Below are positions 29,803 to 40,106 of a DNA stretch of 64,000 nt, in pieces; the stretch's first letter is position 1; each line of letters begins with the position of its first letter. The notes below the pieces were generated by a model. That model ran no database searches and was not told the origin of the DNA. It saw only the letters and a program-made list of their open reading frames with translations. Position numbers and translations under genes: made by a program. Source of the DNA: Phyllobacterium myrsinacearum (GTDB lineage: Bacteria; Pseudomonadota; Alphaproteobacteria; Rhizobiales; Rhizobiaceae). Location: assembly GCF_014138285.1 (NCBI RefSeq), contig NZ_JACGXN010000006.1, positions 62,001 through 126,000 of the forward strand, written 5' to 3'.

Positions 29803-30629
29803 TGCTGTATTTGAAATTTCCCGAGATGAGTTTCCACGGCACCGAGCTGGGGCGCGTACATCTGCAGCGGCTTGAGTGGCTCGAGCAGTCGAAGGGGGAT
29901 GTTGTTGCCGGATTGGCACATTATCCCTCCGGATGTCATGTCCCCGAGCATCGTCACAGCCTGTCCCAGTTGCTGCACGCGATGACCGGCGTGGTAATGG
30001 TCACGACCAAATTCGGCCGCTGGATGGTACCGCCACACCATGCCTTGTGGCTTCCGGCCGGGATCGGGCATGCGGTCGATATGCATGGTGATGTCGCCAT
30101 GCATTCCATCTATGTCCGCCCTGAAGCCGTCGAGGGGCTGAAGAGCCATCTGCATGTGGTGGCCCTGACGCCCCTTATGGATACATTGATCCGCGAAGTC
30201 GTGGCCTCGCCTGCGGAACAGGAAACGAGCCCGCGCACGATCTTCATGATGGGGCTGCTCCTGCACGAGATCCCCAATCTGGAAGAACGCCCGCTGGGCC
30301 TGCCTTTCCCGGAGGATGCACGGCTTGCGGCGCTTTGCCGGGGTTTTCTGAAAGACCCCTCGCCTCATACCAATATCGATGGCTGGGCTGATCAGTTGGG
30401 AATGAGCCGCCGCACCTTCACGCGCATCTTCCGCAAGGAAACGGGCTTGAGCCTTTCGACATGGCGGCAGCAGGCGTGTCTGCTGTCAGCCTTGCCGCGT
30501 CTGACCGAAGGCGAGGCGGTAACAAGTGTTGCGCTTGATCTTGGCTACAACAGCGTTCCCGCCTTTACCACCATGTTCAAACGCATGCTGGGAGCCCCTC
30601 CCCGCAATTACCTTCACTCTGCCGCCTGA
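29802..30629 (+). CDS. AraC family regulator with cupin domain, divergent from MFS exporter
   Basis: About 275 residues: N-terminal cupin sensor ([16 protein letters not shown], then [11 protein letters not shown]) and C-terminal AraC DNA-binding domain ([21 protein letters not shown]). Start uncertain: GTG 29790, ATG 29802 or ATG 29826. It likely regulates the divergent Fsr-like exporter. Its 3' end overlaps the convergent metH by 16 bases. Confidence 0.88.
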
Positions 30630-33600
30630 ACCCGCGGGGCCGGAACGTAATTGAGGATGGGGCCAAGCCAGCGCTCGACCTCTTCGATCGGCATCGCCTT
30701 GCGCTTGGAATAATCCTCGACCTGATCGCGCTCCACCTTGGCCACGCCGAAATAGTAGGATTCCGGATGGGCGAGATAGATGCCCGAAACGGACGAGCCC
30801 GGCCACATGGCATAACTCTCCGTCAGGCGAACGTTGATCTGCTTTTCTGCGTCAAGCAGGCTGAACAGCGTGTCTTTTTCCGTGTGATCGGGCTGCGCCG
30901 GATAGCCGGGTGCCGGACGGATGCCGCGATAGGGCTCGCCGATCAGTTCGTCTGGCTTCAGGGTCTCATCGGCAGCATAACCCCAGAATTCCTTACGTAC
31001 TTTCTCGTGCATCAATTCGGCAAATGCTTCCGCAAACCGGTCGGCAAGCGCCTTCACCAGAATGGACGAATAATCGTCGTTGGCCCGTTCAAACCGTTCG
31101 GCAATGGCAATTTCCTCGATGCCTGCCGTTACAACGAAACCGCCGATGTAATCCTGTTTTCCGCTCGCCACCGGCGCGACGAAATCCGACAGGGCGACAT
31201 TCGGACGGCCATCACGCTTCGACAGCTGCTGGCGCAGCGTGTACATGGTTGCAAGTTCACTCTTGCGGGTTTCGTCGGTGAACAGACAGATATCATCACC
31301 AACGGTACCGGCTGGCCAGAAACCGATAATGGCTTTCGGATTGAACCATTTCTCGTCGATGATCTTGGTCAGCATGGCCTGTGCATCGGCAAACAATTGC
31401 CGCGCTGCCTCGCCCTGCTTTTCATCCTGTAGAATAGCCGGATAGCGGCCCTTCAACTCCCACGTCTGGAAGAACGGTGTCCAGTCGATATACCGCGACA
31501 ATTCCTCGAGGTCGTAATTTTCAAATACCCGAGTTCCCAAGAACGATGGCTTCGGTGGTTCATAGCCCGACCAGTCGATCTTGTGTGCATTCGCCCGCGC
31601 CTTTTCCAGCGACAGCCGCTGCTTGTCGGCCTCGTTGCGGGCATGGGTCTCGGCCACCTTGGTGTATTCGCTGCGGATGTTATCGACAAAGCCGCCCTTG
31701 GTGTCCGGCGAGAGAAGCTGGGAGACGACACCGACAGCACGGCTCGCATCGGTCACATAGACCGTCTGCCCCTTGTGATAGCGCGGGTTGATCTTCACCG
31801 CCGTATGCACGCGGCTTGTCGTGGCCCCGCCGATCAGCAGCGGAATGTTGAACCCTTCGCGCTCCATCTCGGATGCCACATGCACCATCTCATCGAGCGA
31901 TGGTGTAATCAGTCCGGACAGGCCGATAATGTCGACATTGAGCTCTTTTGCAGTCTGCAGGATCTTGGTGGCAGGCACCATGACGCCGAGGTCGATGATC
32001 TCGTAATTGTTGCAGGCGAGAACGACGCCAACAATATTCTTGCCGATGTCGTGCACGTCACCCTTGACCGTCGCCATCAGCACCTTGCCGGCGCTTTCAC
32101 GTTCGCCCGTGCCGCCATTGGCAAGCTTTTCCGCTTCCATATGCGGCAGAAGCAAAGCCACAGCCTGTTTCATCACGCGGGCAGATTTCACCACCTGCGG
32201 CAGGAACATCTTGCCGGCACCGAAGAGATCGCCGACCACATTCATGCCGGCCATCAGCGGGCCTTCGATCACATGCAGCGGCCGAGCGGAACCAAGCCTC
32301 GCCTCTTCCGTGTCAACATCAATGAATTCGGTGATACCATTGACCAGAGCGTGGGAAATGCGGTCCGCCACGCTCCATTCGCGCCAGGCGAGATCGCGCT
32401 CACGCGCTTCCTTGCCTGCTGATCCCTTGTAGCGCTCGGCCAAATCCAGCAGCCGTTCTGTCCCGTCGTCGCGGCGGTTGAGCACGACATCTTCGCAGGC
32501 CTCGCGCAATTCCGGATCAATGGACTCATAGACCGCCAGCTGTCCGGCATTGACGATGCCCATGTCCATGCCGACCTGGATCGCATGATAAAGAAATACC
32601 GCATGCATGGCTTCACGAACGGGCTCATTGCCGCGGAACGAGAAGGACAGGTTTGAGATGCCGCCGGAGATATGCACATGCGGCAGCGTTTCGGTGATCT
32701 GACGCGTCGCCTCGATAAATGCAACGCCATAGCCATTGTGTTCCTCGATACCCGTGGCAACAGCAAACACATTCGGATCGAAGATAATATCCTCAGGCGG
32801 GAAACCCGCCTCCTTGGTCAGAAGCTCATAGGCGCGGGTACAGATCTCGACCTTGCGCTCCAGCGTGTCAGCCTGCCCTTCCGTATCGAAGGCCATGACC
32901 ACGACGGCGGCACCATAAGCACGGACGCGTTTGGCATGATGAAGGAAAGCTTCCTCGCCTTCCTTCATGGAGATGGAGTTGACGAGCGGCTTACCCTGTA
33001 CGCATTTCAAACCGGCCTCGATGACGTCCCACTTGGAACTGTCGATCATGACGGGTACGCGGGCGATATCCGGCTCGGCGGCAATGAGGTTGAGGAACTC
33101 GACCATCGCCTTTTCGCTGTCGATCAGGCCTTCATCCATGTTGATGTCGATGATCTGCGCGCCATTGGCCACCTGATCGCGTGCGACGTCGAGCGCTGTC
33201 GCAAAGTCGCCTGCGGTGATCAGCTTGCGGAACTTGGCCGAACCGGTGATGTTGGTGCGCTCGCCGACATTGACGAACGGAATGTCCTTGGTCAGCGTGA
33301 ACGGCTCAAGGCCGGACAGACGCATATGCGTGGAGATTTCCGGAATCTGGCGCGGCGGATATTTGCTGACAGCTTCGGCAATCGCCCGGATATGATCCGG
33401 CGTCGAACCGCAACAGCCGCCGACGATATTCAGCAACCCCTCCTTGGCAAAGCCTTCCAGCTGTTCCGCCATGGCCTCGGGAGTCTCGTCATACTGCCCG
33501 AATTCGTTGGGAAGACCGGCATTCGGATAGGCGCAGACGAACGTGTCGGCCACACTGGAGATTTCAGCCAGATGGGCGCGCATCGCATTGGCGCCGAGCG

Positions 33601-34390
33601 CACAGTTGAGGCCGATGGTGAATGGCTCCGCATGGCGCACGGAATGCCAGAACGCCGTCGGCGTCTGCCCGGACAAGGTGCGGCCTGAGAGATCAGTGAT
33701 CGTGCCGGAGATCATAATGGGCAAAGTAACGCCCTTTTCCTCGAACACTTCCTGCGTAGCAAACACCGCCGCCTTGGCATTCAGCGTGTCGAAGATCGTC
33801 TCGATCAGGATAATATCGGCCCCGCCGTCCATCAGGCCGCGCACCTGATCCGCATAGGCAATGCGCAGATCATCAAAGGTGACCGCCCGATAGCCGGGAT
33901 TGTTCACGTCAGGCGAAATGGACGCAGTGCGGTTCGTCGGTCCGAGTGCCCCGGCCACGAAGCGGCGTTTTCCATCCTTCTGTTCGGCCTTGATCGCCGC
34001 GCGGCGGGCAAGACGTGCGCCATCGCGGTTCAGCTCATAGACGACCTCTTCCATGCTGTAATCAGCCTGGGCGATGGTCGTGGACGAGAACGTGTTGGTT
34101 TCGAGAATGTCTGCACCAGCCATGGCATAGGCATAGTGGATGTCCTCGATAGCCTGGGGCTGCGTCAGAATCAGAAGATCATTGTTACCCTGCAGGTGAC
34201 AGGAGCAATCGGTAAAGCGGTCGCCGCGAAAATCATCCTCGTTCAGGCTCAAGCCCTGAATCTGCGTGCCCATGGCCCCGTCGAGAATCAGGATGCGCTC
34301 CTGCGCCGCTTTGGTCAGCGCTTCAAACACCTCCGAGCCATCCCGTGGAGCGCCCATGGGACCGAACAGATTATCGACTGCAATGTTCAT
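30614..34390 (-). CDS. metH: Cobalamin-dependent methionine synthase
   Basis: A 1258-residue four-module MetH transferring a methyl group from methyltetrahydrofolate to homocysteine. Homocysteine/Zn domain: G-A-M-G-T-Q at the N-terminus, Cys in G-L-N-C-A-L-G and G-G-C-C-G-S (residue about 322). Pterin domain begins F-V-N-V-G-E-R-T-N. The B12 domain has D-V-H-D-I-G-K-N (residue about 777; His is the lower cobalt ligand). The C-terminal AdoMet reactivation domain contains [12 protein letters not shown]. Full length. A perfect palindrome upstream (34436-34455) is a likely operator. It is neighbour to cobF and a B12 riboswitch operon. Confidence 0.97.
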
Positions 34391-34535: not shown

Positions 34536-35300
34536 CTAATTTTGGTCGGGCCGTTTCAACAAATACGTATCCATGATCCAGCCTTTTTGTTGCCGTGCGA
34601 CAGTGCGCAGCCGTTCGATCTCATCGACAACATCACGCAACCGCCCGGAAAGAAGAATCTCGTCTTCCGTGCCGACATAGGCACCCCAATAGATGTCGAC
34701 GTCTTCCTTGATGTTTTTGAACGCGCCATCGCCATCGAGCATGACGACAATGCTTTCCGAATTGTTGGGAAACCCCTCCTCCAGCTTGCGACCCGTGGTG
34801 ATGGTGATGGATTCGCCGATACGGTTGAGGACGACCTTGTGTTTCGCCGTCAGCGCCTGAATGGCGGTTATGCCCGGTATCACGTCATATTCCAGCTCGA
34901 AGCCACCCTTGGCATTGAGCCGATCGAGAATCCGCAGCGTGCTGTCATAGAGTGACGGATCACCCCAGACGAGAAACGCCCCGCACTCGCCGTCACCAAG
35001 TTCCTCAAGCAGCAGATGCTCATAGGTCGCCTCGACCTTGTCGTGCCAATCTTCGACACTGGCGCGATAGGTTGAAGACGGCTTATGACGGACGGGCGTT
35101 TCAAAATCGACCATGCGGTAGTCGTGGTCAGTGATAAAGCGCTCGCAAATCTCGCGGCGGATACGCGCAAGCTGTTCCTTCTGGGCACCCTTGTCCGGAA
35201 TGAAAAACACATCGACCTGATTGAGCGCATTGACCGCCTGAATGGTGACGTAATCGGGGTTTCCAGCCCCGATGCCGATGATGAGAACCTTCCGTTTCAT
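34536..35300 (-). CDS. cobF: Precorrin-6A synthase (deacetylating)
   Basis: A 254-residue tetrapyrrole methylase of the aerobic B12 pathway; CobF methylates C-1 of the corrin precursor and releases acetate. N-terminal K-V-L-I-I-G-I-G-A-G-N-P-D-Y-V-T matches the SAM-binding P-loop, and F-L-V-W-G-D-P-S-L-Y-D-S-T is the second methylase motif. The start at 35300 overlaps the stop of the preceding 71-residue gene (ATGA), and homology begins exactly there, although the frame is open to 35360. It is placed in the ribonucleotide reductase operon, away from any other cob gene seen here. Confidence 0.92.
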   Translation of the reverse strand: MKRKVLIIGIGAGNPDYVTIQAVNALNQVDVFFIPDKGAQKEQLARIRREICERFITDHDYRMVDFETPVRHKPSSTYRASVEDWHDKVEATYEHLLLEELGDGECGAFLVWGDPSLYDSTLRILDRLNAKGGFELEYDVIPGITAIQALTAKHKVVLNRIGESITITTGRKLEEGFPNNSESIVVMLDGDGAFKNIKEDVDIYWGAYVGTEDEILLSGRLRDVVDEIERLRTVARQQKGWIMDTYLLKRPDQN

Positions 35301-35512
35301 TGCTTGGTCTGCGAGCTCTGCGGCCGGGCCGATGCTTTCTTCTCGCGGATCAGTGCACAAAAGAGGTCATGCAGTCGTTTGGCACCCGGATGGCTGGCAT
35401 AGGACTGCAGCCGTGCAACCTCGGCACTGGCTGCAACGACAAGATCGGCATTCCTCGGCTGGTGCATCAGCCACGCGACGAATACGTCTTCGGGAGCGGG
35501 CATCGTGTTCAT
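35297..35512 (-). CDS. 71-residue protein of unknown function in the nrdAB-cobF operon
   Basis: A small protein not recognised, with N-terminal [16 protein letters not shown] and a basic tail. No signal peptide or transmembrane segment. Its ATG shares a base with the nrdB stop (TGATG) and its stop overlaps the cobF start (ATGA), so it is translationally coupled on both sides; this supports it being real. Position suggests a role with the reductase or with B12 synthesis. The frame is open upstream to 35608 inside nrdB, but that part is not credible. Confidence 0.75.
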   Translation of the reverse strand: MNTMPAPEDVFVAWLMHQPRNADLVVAASAEVARLQSYASHPGAKRLHDLFCALIREKKASARPQSSQTKQ

Positions 35513-36651
35513 CAATCCCATGCCAGCGCTCCACCGTTCTGGTACTCGATAACCCGGGTTTCGAAGAAGTTCTTTTCCTTCTTCAGATCCATGGCTTCCG
35601 ACATCCACGGGAACGGATTGTCCGTATCAGGGAAAACCTGGGCGAGGCCAAGCTGGGCACAGCGGCGGTTGGCGATGAAGTGCATATAGGTTTCACACAG
35701 GGCAGCATTCAGCCCGAGGAAACCGCGTGGCATCGTATCGCGGCCGTAGGAAGCCTCGAGTTCTGCGGCATCCCGGATCATCCCGCGCAATTCTTCGGTG
35801 AAGGCTTTCGTCCACAGATGCGGATTCTCGTGACGGATCTGGTTGATCACGTCGATACCGAAATTCATGTGGATGCTCTCGTCGCGCAGGATGTACTGAT
35901 ACTGTTCGGCAATGCCGACCATCTTGTTGCGTCGGCCGAGCGACAGGATCTGGGCAAAGCCCGTATAGAACCACATGCCTTCGAAAATGACGTAGAAAGC
36001 CACGAGATCACGCAGAAATTGCTGGTCCATCTCCGGTGTGCCGGTTTTGAAGTCGGGATTGTCGAGGTTCTGCGTGTGCTTGAGCGCCCATGCCGCCTTG
36101 TCGGTGATGGAAGGCACTTCGCGGTACATGTTGAAAAGCTCACCCTCATCAAGGCCAAGGCTTTCGACAATATACTGGAACGTATGGGTATGAACGGCTT
36201 CTTCGAAAGCCTGACGCAGCAAATACTGGCGGCATTCCGGATTAGTCAGGTGCCGATAGATGGCCAGCACAATATTGTTGGCAACAAGTGACTCGGATGC
36301 CGCGAAGAAACCGAGATTGCGCTTGATCATGCGGCGTTCGTCATCAGTCAGCCCATCCTTGGATTTCCACAGGGCGATATCCGCCTGCATCGATACCTCA
36401 GTCGGCATCCAGTGATTGTTGCAGCCGTTAAGGTATTTCTCCCAGGCCCAGTGATATTTGAGCGGCAGCAACTGATTGACGTCGGCACGTGAGTTGATCA
36501 TCGCCTTGTCATCGACGCGTACACGGCCACCGCCGCGTACGATATCGCCAAGACCCGTGGCATCGGCGGCGGGTGCCTGATCCGGTGCAAGGGCGGGGTG
36601 GATGGCGCGTGCCGAGTTGGCGGCAGCTTCGGTGTTGGTCCAGTCAAGCAT
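35512..36651 (-). CDS. nrdB: Ribonucleotide reductase R2 subunit, class Ic-like (Tyr-less)
   Basis: A 379-residue ferritin-like beta subunit providing the radical initiator for NrdA. Metal ligands by alignment to E. coli R2: E120 (first ligand, Glu instead of Asp), E151, H154, E224, E258, H261. The residue four after H154, which is the radical Tyr in class Ia, is F158 (stretch E-A-V-H-T-H-T-F). Spacing 120-151-154-158 is identical to E. coli 84-115-118-122 and to Chlamydia 89-120-123-127. Glu plus Phe are the hallmarks of class Ic enzymes with a Mn/Fe cofactor. A C-terminal Tyr (Y370) for radical transfer is kept. AAGGA precedes the ATG. Confidence 0.95.
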
Positions 36652-36691
36652 GTTGTCAGTCCTTGTTGTTATTGATGTTGAGAACTGGAGC

Positions 36692-36850
36692 ACCCCCCTC
36701 TGGGCTGTCGCCCATCTCGCCCACAAGGGGGGAGATCAGCCTTCATCAATATTTCCATCCGGTGGCATTATTGCCAAACCAAGTGAGATGGCTGGTATCG
36801 ATGTGATCTCCCCCCTTGTGGGGGAGATGCCCGACAGGGCAGAGGGGGGT
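36692..36850. repeat. RIME-like intergenic mosaic repeat, copy 1
   Basis: Two long inverted arms of about 47 bases (36692-36738 and 36804-36850) rich in CCCCCCTCTG...GGGGGGAGATCA flank a central spacer of about 65 bases. It lies between nrdA and nrdB and would form a long hairpin in the operon mRNA. A second copy (48200-48357) shares both arms and the inner ends of the spacer. It resembles the Rhizobium-specific intergenic mosaic elements (RIME); family naming is from memory. Confidence 0.9.
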
Positions 36851-36858
36851 GCATAATT

Positions 36859-39738
36859 CTACTGGCAGGCTTCACAGTCAGGATCATTGATCGAACAGGC
36901 ATTACCGGCTGGTTCCGACAGAATGATCGGTTCGGCAATCGGCTTGGCGGCGACGGCATTGAGTTTGCCATCGGTGCCTTTCAACGTGGACTTTTCTACG
37001 TGCGAGGCCGAGCGCGAGCGCAGGTAGTAGGTCGTCTTCAGGCCGCTGTTCCAGGCGAGGCGATAAAGCTCGTCGAGCTTCTTGCCGCTTGGGTTTGCAA
37101 TGTAGAGATTGAGGGACTGGGCTTGATCGATCCATTTCTGCCGGCGCGAGGCCGCGGCAATCAGCCATGCGCTGTCGATTTCGAACGCTGTGGCATAGAG
37201 GGCCTTGAGGTCGTCCGGGATACGGTCGATTTCACCAACCGAACCGTCGAAATATTTCAGGTCCGAAATCATCACCTCGTCCCACAGGCCGCGCTTCTTC
37301 AGGTCATGCACGAGGGCCGCATTCACGACGGTGAAGTCACCCGACATATTGGATTTGACGAAGAGATTCTGATAGGCGGGCTCGATGGACTGGGCAACAC
37401 CGCAAATATTCGAAATCGTTGCGGTGGGTGCAATTGCCATGGTGTTGGAATTGCGCATTCCGGTTTTCATCATTCTCTTGCGCAGGGCTTCCCAATCAAG
37501 GGTAATGCTGCGGTCCATCGAAAGCTTGGCACCGGCTGCCGTGCGGGCCTGATCAAGCAGTTCGATGGAATCGATCGGGAGAATGCCTTTTGACCAGAGC
37601 GAGCCGCCGAAACTTGGATAGCTGCCGCGTTCGCTGGCGAGGTCAACCGACGCCGAAATGGCATGATAAGAAATGGCTTCCATGCTGAGATCGGCGAAAG
37701 CCACGGCTTCGTTGGAGGCGTAGGGAATACGCAATGCCTGCAATGCATCCTGGAAACCCATCAAACCGAGACCGACCGGACGGTGACGCAGGTTGGAATG
37801 GCGCGCTTCCGGAATAGTGTAGAAATTGATGTCGATGACATTGTCGAGCATGCGCATGGCTGTTGCCACAGTGCGCGCCAGACGCTCAAGATCGAGACCT
37901 TCGGCTGCAATGTGGTTGGCAAGATTGATCGAGCCGAGGTTGCACACCGCAACTTCATCCTTCGATGTGTTGAGGGTAATTTCCGTACACAGGTTCGAAG
38001 AATGCACTACGCCAACATGCCCCTGAGGCGAGCGGATATTGCAGGGGTCCTTGAACGTGACCCATGGGTGGCCGGTCTCGAACAGCATGGTGAGAATTCG
38101 GCGCCAGAGATCCAGAGCCCGCACCACGCGGGAGACGCGCATTTCGCCACGCGCAGCCTTGGCTTCATAGGCCTCGTAGGCAATTTTGAAGTCCGCGCCG
38201 TAGAGATCATGCAGATCAGGTGTCTCGTCGGGCGAGAAAAGGGTCCATGGCTCGTCCTTTTCCACGCGGCTCATGAACAGGTCAGGCACCCAATTGGCCG
38301 TGTTCATGTCATGGGTGCGGCGGCGGTCGTCACCGGTGTTCTTGCGCAGATCGAGGAACTCCTCGATGTCGACGTGCCAGGTCTCAAGATAGGCGCAGAC
38401 AGCGCCCTTGCGCTTGCCGCCCTGATTGACGGCGATGGCCGTATCATTGGCCACTTTGAGGAACGGAACAACACCCTGGCTTTCACCGTTGGTGCCCTTG
38501 ATATGGGCGCCAAGACCACGCACCGGCGTCCAGTCATTGCCAAGGCCGCCGGAATATTTTGCCAGAAGCGCGTTGTCCTTCACCGCCTTGAAAATACCAT
38601 CGAGATCGTCGGCAACGGTGGTCAGGAAGCAGGAGGACAGCTGCGGACGCAGCGTGCCTGAGTTGAACAATGTCGGTGTGGATGCCATGAAGTCAAAGGA
38701 CGACAGCAGGTCGTAGAATTCGACGGCGCGTGCTTCCCGGTCGATCTCGCGGGTGGCGAGGCCCATGGCAACGCGCATCAGGAAGGCCTGCGGCAACTCG
38801 AACCGGATACCGCGTGTCTGCTGGAGATAACGATCGTAGAGTGTCTGCAGGCCGAGATACTGAAACTGCAGGTCGCGTTCCGGCTTCAGGGCTGCGGATA
38901 TTTTCCGCAGATCGAAGCGGGCCAGTTCCGGATCAAGCAATTCCGCTTCAATGCCAGCCTTTACATAGGCCGGGAAATAATCGGCATACCGCTCGGCCAT
39001 TTCGTGCTGGGTCGCCTGTTCAGGACGGCCGAAGACAAAGCTCAAGGCTTCTCGGCGCAGCTTGTCCAGAAGCAACCGGGCGGTGACGAAGGAGTAGTTC
39101 GGTTCGGTTTCAACGAGGGTGCGCGCTGCCAGAATGGGTGCAAGCGACAGTTCGTCGAGCGTAATGCCATCATAAAGGTTGCGCTGGGTTTCGCTGAGGA
39201 TCGGCGCGGCGCTCACCCCCTCAAGTCCTTCGCAGGCTTCGTCGATGATGCGCGCAAGCCGTACCGCATCGAGAGGAGCTTTGGTTCCGTCGAGTAGGGT
39301 AACGCTCAGTGACGGGCCGGTTTTGGCCACCGGTTCCGCCAGCTTCGCTCGTTCTCTCGCGCGTTCTTCCCGATAGAGAACATAGGCGCGTGCAACTTTG
39401 TGGTTTTCGCTGCGCATGAGGGCAAGCTCGACCTGATCCTGCACATCCTCGATGTGGAACAGGCGGCCTTCGCTGCTGCGGCGCTTCAAGGTTGTCACAA
39501 TGTCGGAGGTCAAGCCTTCGACGACATCATGCACGCGGCGCGAGCCGGCGGCGACATTGCCTTCAACAGCGAGGAAGGCTTTGGTCAGGGCAACGGTGAT
39601 TTTCAGCGGGTCGAACAGTGTCACCGAACCATTGCGGCGAATGACACGATAGCCGGGCTCGGTGAATGATGATTGTGTTTCGCCGGGACGAACGGGCGCA
39701 AGTCCATCGATGCCGGTGGTTTCAAGAGAAAGAGACAT
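36859..39738 (-). CDS. nrdA: Ribonucleotide reductase R1 subunit with tandem ATP cones
   Basis: A 959-residue catalytic subunit reducing ribonucleoside diphosphates. Two N-terminal ATP-cone-like regions are visible (about residues 30-125, with R-R-N-G-S-V-T-L-F-D-P-L-K-I, and about 140-225, with L-L-D-G-T-K-A-P-L-D-A-V-R-L-A), longer than E. coli NrdA (761). Active-site cysteines: S-S-C-F-L-T, N-L-C-T-E-I (thiyl radical site) and V-C-N-L-G-S; the C-terminal shuttle pair is C-E-A-C-Q. The start ATG at 39738 follows GGGG; a TTG at 39753 is less likely. The gene is preceded by a cobalamin riboswitch on the same strand. Confidence 0.96.
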   Translation of the reverse strand: MSLSLETTGIDGLAPVRPGETQSSFTEPGYRVIRRNGSVTLFDPLKITVALTKAFLAVEGNVAAGSRRVHDVVEGLTSDIVTTLKRRSSEGRLFHIEDVQDQVELALMRSENHKVARAYVLYREERARERAKLAEPVAKTGPSLSVTLLDGTKAPLDAVRLARIIDEACEGLEGVSAAPILSETQRNLYDGITLDELSLAPILAARTLVETEPNYSFVTARLLLDKLRREALSFVFGRPEQATQHEMAERYADYFPAYVKAGIEAELLDPELARFDLRKISAALKPERDLQFQYLGLQTLYDRYLQQTRGIRFELPQAFLMRVAMGLATREIDREARAVEFYDLLSSFDFMASTPTLFNSGTLRPQLSSCFLTTVADDLDGIFKAVKDNALLAKYSGGLGNDWTPVRGLGAHIKGTNGESQGVVPFLKVANDTAIAVNQGGKRKGAVCAYLETWHVDIEEFLDLRKNTGDDRRRTHDMNTANWVPDLFMSRVEKDEPWTLFSPDETPDLHDLYGADFKIAYEAYEAKAARGEMRVSRVVRALDLWRRILTMLFETGHPWVTFKDPCNIRSPQGHVGVVHSSNLCTEITLNTSKDEVAVCNLGSINLANHIAAEGLDLERLARTVATAMRMLDNVIDINFYTIPEARHSNLRHRPVGLGLMGFQDALQALRIPYASNEAVAFADLSMEAISYHAISASVDLASERGSYPSFGGSLWSKGILPIDSIELLDQARTAAGAKLSMDRSITLDWEALRKRMMKTGMRNSNTMAIAPTATISNICGVAQSIEPAYQNLFVKSNMSGDFTVVNAALVHDLKKRGLWDEVMISDLKYFDGSVGEIDRIPDDLKALYATAFEIDSAWLIAAASRRQKWIDQAQSLNLYIANPSGKKLDELYRLAWNSGLKTTYYLRSRSASHVEKSTLKGTDGKLNAVAAKPIAEPIILSEPAGNACSINDPDCEACQ

Positions 39739-39858
39739 GTGCTTATACCCCAAAAGTTGGGGGCAAAGGTCGAGCGCACGCGTGCAAAGAGAGAGTCAGC
39801 TTGCGGCTGACCATTGCAAGCGACACACCGGGACACCCCGCCCGTGGACGTTCATCAT

Positions 39859-40043
39859 GTTATGGCAGGTCTCCTGGCTCACAGGTCGGCGCTGGTGTCG
39901 GCCTTCCCGAAGCTGGGCTTCAGTGGCATTGTCGACAACAACTCGCTGTTTACAGTTGCGGGGGCAGCGCCGGCATCAATGTCAACGACATCTCACCGGC
40001 TTCCCTCTTAGCTCCCGGTCTTGCGACTCGGTAGAACCATAAC
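39859..40043 (-). promoter_or_regulatory. Cobalamin riboswitch upstream of nrdA
   Basis: On the minus strand the conserved elements occur in order: GGTTCTACCG at the 5' end, AAGAGGGAAGCCGGTGAGA, the B12 box CCGCAACTGTAAACAGCGAG, GCCACTG, GGGAAGGC, and the terminal GAGCCAGGAGACCTGCC, all diagnostic of the Cbl aptamer. It ends 120 bases before the nrdA start. No obvious intrinsic terminator follows; control could be on translation. It should switch off nrdA-nrdB-71aa-cobF when B12 is plentiful. The 39739-40106 gap holds nothing else recognised. Confidence 0.93.
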
Positions 40044-40106
40044 ATCTATATTTAGTATCAAATCGTCATCTGCAGTCAATAGGTAGATGGCGATATCTTC
40101 AATTAC

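Follow-up and report, generated by a model that had tools for sequence, protein, structure and literature searches.

A class Ic ribonucleotide reductase operon behind a cobalamin riboswitch in Phyllobacterium myrsinacearum, a probable B12-free stand-in for NrdJ

The nrdAB operon found in a 64,000-nucleotide stretch of the Phyllobacterium myrsinacearum genome (hereafter the window) encodes a class Ic ribonucleotide reductase (RNR) that probably stands in, under riboswitch control and with no need of B12, for the NrdJ that this genome also encodes. The B12-dependent NrdJ is encoded on another contig (2356 bits in a profile search), and its presence, together with a cobalamin riboswitch before nrdA, makes the role of a B12-free stand-in the most likely one for nrdAB. 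Neither this type of enzyme nor the logic of its control is new, and it is only their pairing that merits a second look. In this regard, the accessible part of PMC545781, which cites an earlier report, describes B12-independent RNRs under B12 elements in genomes with NrdJ, the case in question being NrdDG. As in the window, a B12 element precedes a B12-independent RNR in those delta-proteobacteria and NrdJ is present, but the enzyme there is NrdDG, whereas here we find a class Ic NrdAB (PMC545781, in the same part). A link between class Ic RNRs and a riboswitch is not stated in the available text of PMC4428469 or PMC9936198, within a partial literature search that covered mostly papers outside subscription. 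NrdB itself is an ordinary and well-formed member of class Ic; of more use is the finding that B12 likely controls it.

The nrdB gene lies at 35512-36651 on the minus strand, where translation from the ATG gives 379 amino acids with no internal stop, and its product belongs, by sequence, among the class Ic R2 proteins. NrdB matches Pfam PF00268 with 313.5 bits and NCBIfam NF005550 with 676 bits (cut-off 309). In an alignment with Chlamydia R2c (1syy chain), E. coli NrdB, E. coli NrdF and Tyr-type relatives, residues E120, E151, H154 and F158 fall on Chlamydia E89, E120, H123 and F127, and on the Asp, Glu, His and Tyr of E. coli NrdB and NrdF, with a 31/34/38 spacing common to NrdB, Chlamydia R2c and E. 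coli NrdB. The initial annotation had named E120 as the first metal ligand and F158 as the occupant of the radical-Tyr position, in a spacing identical to that of E. coli and Chlamydia, and the alignment bears out both statements. Moreover, E224, E258 and H261 correspond to Chlamydia E193, E227 and H230, giving by alignment a ligand set of four Glu and two His (E120, E151, H154, E224, E258 and H261), while W81, F228, Y253, D257 and Y370 correspond to W51, F197, Y222, D226 and Y338.

Altogether, the 12 Chlamydia R2c positions checked are matched residue for residue, and comparison with the characterised R2 proteins, which had been proposed as the check, finds Phe at the radical position, where class Ia and Ib proteins have Tyr, with no other Tyr aligned to it. 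None of the 12 positions varies among the 80 relatives compared, which are the best-scoring of at least 580 confirmed ones and hence close kin, in which invariance is partly expected. Conservation of the Glu/Phe state in these 80 close relatives rules out chance or a sequencing error as its source. The nearest named relatives in the same set, P. myrsinacearum (L011) and P. calauticae (L012), have a NrdB 99% identical to that of the window. Both the alignment and the residues of the relatives speak against a shift in register that would bring some other Tyr to the radical site, and this possibility was rejected; so was an R2lox identity, by the profile scores, the best R2lox model reaching 53.6 bits against a cut-off of 194.

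It is the Phe, rather than the Glu, that carries the class Ic call. According to the accessible text of PMC4118035, the first ligand is Asp in classes Ia and Ib and Glu in class Ic, R2lox and monooxygenases. The occurrence of Tyr-type R2 proteins with a Glu first ligand makes Glu non-diagnostic when taken alone, so that of the Glu/Phe signature initially read as class Ic only the Phe keeps that meaning: Glu is the first ligand in 4 of the 9 Tyr-type R2s found when the order was sampled evenly (150 genomes), one of the 4 being the R2 of a prophage in the window genome. Among solved structures, a sequence search against their chains returned 6y2n and Chlamydia R2c as the nearest to NrdB. The R2 of Saccharopolyspora erythraea (PDB 6y2n) is the closest, with 682.9 bits over NrdB residues 42-379 and one stretch of ten residues identical in both; in PMC7467353 it is a crystallography test sample, and no cofactor assignment was seen in the available portion of that paper. 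The class Ic R2 of Chlamydia trachomatis (1syy, 4m1i), 57.7% identical to NrdB over 336 columns, shares the six ligands and the radical-site Phe, and its W51, F197, Y222, D226 and Y338 have equivalents in NrdB; unlike it, NrdB comes from an operon led by a cobalamin riboswitch, and its genome encodes NrdJ as well.

The Glu/Phe state is not rare, being present in 11 of the 150 genomes of the order sample, where the R2 proteins counted are those found by the NF005550 model. This model finds 20 R2s there, of which the 11 over the cut-off are all Glu/Phe and the 9 below it all Tyr-type. At the level of the phylum, 72 of 398 genomes have a match over the cut-off, and the 27 loci fetched comprise 20 Asp/Tyr and 7 Glu/Phe proteins; in the phylum of a Streptomyces locus (L088) the figure is 12 of 246 genomes, 8 of the 12 having been read with L088 included. 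Across the over-cut-off loci that were read, Glu pairs with Phe (in two actinobacterial cases with Leu) and Asp with Tyr. The NF005550 family is thus mixed, and a match to it does not amount to a class Ic call. Two R2 relatives from the Streptomyces phylum (L150, L151) combine a Glu first ligand with Leu at the radical position, and a third protein (L152) is a Glu/Phe R2 with only 34% identity. In the window genome itself, a prophage-like region of contig 16 (L009, 6206-8820) carries a nrdB with Glu as first ligand and Tyr at the radical position, and a short nrdA comes after it; this Tyr-type set is the third RNR of the genome beside nrdAB and NrdJ, and its neighbours, read from their translations, are annealing-protein-, RuvC- and ThyX-like.

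Upstream of nrdA, a cobalamin riboswitch (RF00174) occupies 39847-40056 on the minus strand, 108 bases before the nrdA start, and matches the full model with 136.9 bits (E 2.2e-34) against a gathering score of 31.5. Probable twin NrdR boxes lie at 40074-40089 and 40043-40058 of the same strand (span 40043-40089), 31 bases apart, in a stretch containing TTGACT and TACTAA elements that resemble a -35 and a -10 and would form a promoter. A gene of the NrdR regulon is expected to carry two boxes at its promoter, with a spacing of about 31-32 bases. Scored with what we take to be the NrdR motif, the window pair alone is modest, its score being reached by 9 of 300 single-base shuffles. For 50 of the 58 relatives scored, which are not independent of one another, no more than 3 of 60 shuffles equal the pair, whereas for the other 8 between 4 and all 60 do; the best spacing is 31 or 32 in 45 of the 58, six spacings being allowed. 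Between the riboswitch and nrdA, a terminator-like hairpin (39794-39812, minus strand) is a possible expression platform, a weak candidate given that the 8 such hairpins found in the region compare with 5.5 expected from shuffles, near chance level.

The remaining genes of the region run in the same direction. The catalytic subunit is encoded by nrdA (36859-39738, minus strand, 959 amino acids; NF005544, 1685 bits), in which an ATP-cone domain is reported in two stretches. The 207-base gap between nrdA and nrdB (36652-36858) holds a long inverted repeat that, by eye, resembles a small palindromic repeat element. Downstream, a small ORF of 71 amino acids (35297-35512, minus strand) overlaps the nrdB stop by one base with its ATG; it has no NCBIfam or Pfam match and, among the best 80 of at least 580 loci, is matched in L011, L023 and L026 (in the last away from nrdB), with no counterpart found in the other 77. 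It is followed by cobF, for a precorrin-6A synthase (34536-35291, minus strand; TIGR02434, 360.6 bits), which is possibly under the same riboswitch as nrdAB and is matched at L011 only in that set of 80, and then by a metH-type methionine synthase gene (30614-34390, minus strand) named from its translation. Homologues of metH also lie 3' of nrdB in L011 and L012; a B12-using metH beneath a B12-off switch would be odd, if co-transcribed with nrdAB. The idea that the operon includes an accessory gene for class Ic was considered and rejected, nrdA being the only one of nrdA, the small ORF, cobF and metH matched in 80 of 80 loci.

The association of the riboswitch with nrdAB extends to relatives. 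Among the best 80 of at least 580, a riboswitch precedes nrdA in 61 of the 76 testable loci, 53 of them found by the Rfam covariance model and 8 by the B12-box motif only; model searches covered 68 of the 80 loci and the motif 8 more, and the 4 dropped (L021, L022, L065, L073) are those whose contig ends before the nrdA start. NrdJ was scored as present on a TIGR02504 match over the cut-off other than the operon NrdA, whose own scores, at about 367 to 410 bits, come close to this threshold. Two NrdJ fragments in L037 were scored as presence, the short R1 genes of the L031, L053 and L056 genomes as absence by score alone, and L011 and L047 were left out. On this hand-made list, NrdJ is found in 53 of 59 riboswitch-bearing and 9 of 15 riboswitch-less genomes (Fisher p 0.012), and in the non-actinobacterial subset in 44 of 49 versus 2 of 7 (Fisher p 0.0012), in tests that ignore relatedness. 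Relatives without NrdJ tend, then, to be without the riboswitch too. The exceptions in this set are the 9 of 15 riboswitch-less loci with NrdJ, 7 of the 9 actinobacterial, and, on the other side, 6 of the 59 genomes with the riboswitch, in which no NrdJ passes the cut-off and among which are several draft MAGs; a further exception (G064) has NrdJ and a riboswitch 3' of nrdB. In the order sample the riboswitch is present at 10 of 11 Glu/Phe loci and NrdJ in 11 of 11 genomes, and two phylum samples supplied 10 further Glu/Phe genomes, picked by hand, in which the riboswitch accompanies NrdJ in 9 cases and both are missing in 1. Four class Ic nrdAB loci (L014, L034, L075, L086) have neither a riboswitch before them nor NrdJ over the cut-off in their genomes, where class Ic nrdAB may be the main enzyme. 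Nine loci (L020, L024, L025, L027, L046, L059, L062, L067, L088) show a second cobalamin riboswitch close upstream on the opposite strand, which suggests a divergent B12-regulated gene.

The notion that the riboswitch marks class Ic itself was rejected, as in the order sample it also stands before nrdA in 4 of the 6 Tyr-type loci with NrdJ (G035, with only 40.6 bits, G146, G116 and G023); the two lacking it are G088 and the prophage of the window genome. It is found in 0 of the 3 Tyr-type loci of genomes with no NrdJ over the NF005736 cut-off, and the gene order is nrdA-nrdB in the eight chromosomal Tyr-type loci checked. Moreover, no riboswitch was found near nrdAB in 17 genomes from other classes of the phylum that carry close Asp/Tyr kin, 7 of them with NrdJ. 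From these Tyr-type and Asp/Tyr counts, the riboswitch follows lineage and the presence of NrdJ, and not the radical type alone.

The residues, the homology, the riboswitch sequence and the NrdJ gene are established, and a working scheme of the operon can be set on them. For the metals and the radical chemistry we infer from the Chlamydia enzyme that F158 leaves no room for a tyrosyl radical in its customary place and that the oxidising equivalent would be kept in a Mn(IV)/Fe(III) cluster, with the four Glu and two His as its ligands, to be passed through W81/D257 and Y370 to the active-site Cys of NrdA. The direction of the switch and the NrdR site are likewise presumptive. Plentiful cobalamin would let the riboswitch shut off nrdAB, and perhaps cobF too; when cobalamin is scarce, the operon would open and its product would replace NrdJ, with NrdR setting initiation by the nucleotide pool at its predicted site.

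The Phe in place of Tyr, the Glu first ligand, the Chlamydia-type residues at the 12 positions and the nearest solved chains together point to class Ic, and therefore Mn/Fe, as initially predicted, is probably the cofactor of NrdB and the likeliest prediction from its sequence. An R2-like protein with another cofactor (e.g., Fe/Fe or Mn/Mn, with no stable tyrosyl radical), its Phe making it a class Ic look-alike, is improbable. Metal choice is unreadable from the ligands alone, as pointed out in the accessible part of PMC4118035, and the window sequence holds nothing to settle it, but the four Glu carboxylates, the radical-site Phe and the Tyr at the Chlamydia 222 position make up the Chlamydia pattern, and Chlamydia R2c is highly active with mixed Mn/Fe only (PMC4118035, same part). 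The iron-sparing setting to which the cofactor had been tied in the initial annotation found no support at nrdAB, where the leader displays the cobalamin riboswitch, the likely NrdR twin box and no match to an Irr-type motif. A riboswitch before nrdAB, in a genome that encodes NrdJ, directs attention to the supply of B12. The iron regulators covered were limited to Irr: the motif, in the form that we take to be Irr-type, has no match at the nrdAB promoter and 2 matches in the 64-kb window (28262 and 63208) against 0.74 expected, with at least 2 in 16 of 100 shuffles. A function of the operon in iron or oxidative stress, to which control by B12 would be subordinate, is accordingly very improbable, the leader being occupied by the riboswitch and NrdR-like boxes, even if a Mn/Fe cofactor spares one iron per site and adaptation to iron limitation is mentioned as speculation in the available text of PMC4118035.

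A different matter is whether the Glu/Phe state of the window clade arose apart from that of Chlamydia, as a convergent class Ic, or whether the Asp/Tyr kin reacquired their Tyr; we regard this as possible though doubtful, and it can stand together with the preferred reading of a class Ic, B12-free stand-in. The Asp/Tyr R2 proteins of NF005550, from other classes of the phylum, have, like NrdB, a Tyr at the Chlamydia 222 position and, unlike it, an Asp first ligand and a Tyr at the radical site. The NrdB of P. aeruginosa is, we presume, a member of this set. It is described as a tyrosyl-radical enzyme in the accessible part of PMC6754346. These Asp/Tyr proteins are closer to NrdB (62.8-69.6% identity over about 339 columns) than Chlamydia R2c is (57.7%), which speaks for a separate origin. 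The R2 phylogeny that had been called for is divided on the point. In the best tree with outgroups, computed with the two switching columns left out, the window clade (99/100) stands apart from the group holding Chlamydia (89/100), with the Asp/Tyr groups unresolved between them; the best outgroup trees need two changes, and a single change is enough in 12% and 20% of bootstrap trees in two analyses. On the other side, a single Glu/Phe clade is not rejected (p-AU 0.516), its likelihood being 0.17 higher than that of the free tree, whereas a tree that groups the window clade with the Asp/Tyr kin and keeps Chlamydia outside loses 5.4 log units (p-AU 0.075). Glu/Phe rows also fall on one side of a branch when outgroups are omitted (81/52), and together when the close Asp/Tyr kin are (88/91), and the available text of the review PMC4390871 places tyrosine-less NrdBs in a tight cluster.

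A broader proposal, which we advance tentatively as rather unlikely, is that the Glu/Phe and Asp/Tyr states have switched more than once inside a single R2 family, ligand and radical residue together, and that in many Alphaproteobacteria, Acidobacteriota and Actinomycetota class Ic mainly substitutes, without cobalt and with a cobalamin riboswitch as its readout, for the class II enzyme. If true, class Ic would be a repeatedly reached chemistry and not one lineage, and its main role would differ from the life of pathogens and extremophiles to which the accessible part of PMC4118035 ties these enzymes. In any case, comparing the class Ic enzyme with its close Asp/Tyr sister set allows one to study how the choice of metal and the radical site evolve jointly. 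According to the same part of PMC4118035, no R2c had yet, by 2014, been shown to bind Mn/Fe in vivo, and such binding would become testable if cobalamin sets the level of class Ic. The B12 link, if true, would suggest what a bacterium that is no pathogen gains physiologically from a Mn/Fe enzyme, and would provide a simple laboratory means to switch such an enzyme on.
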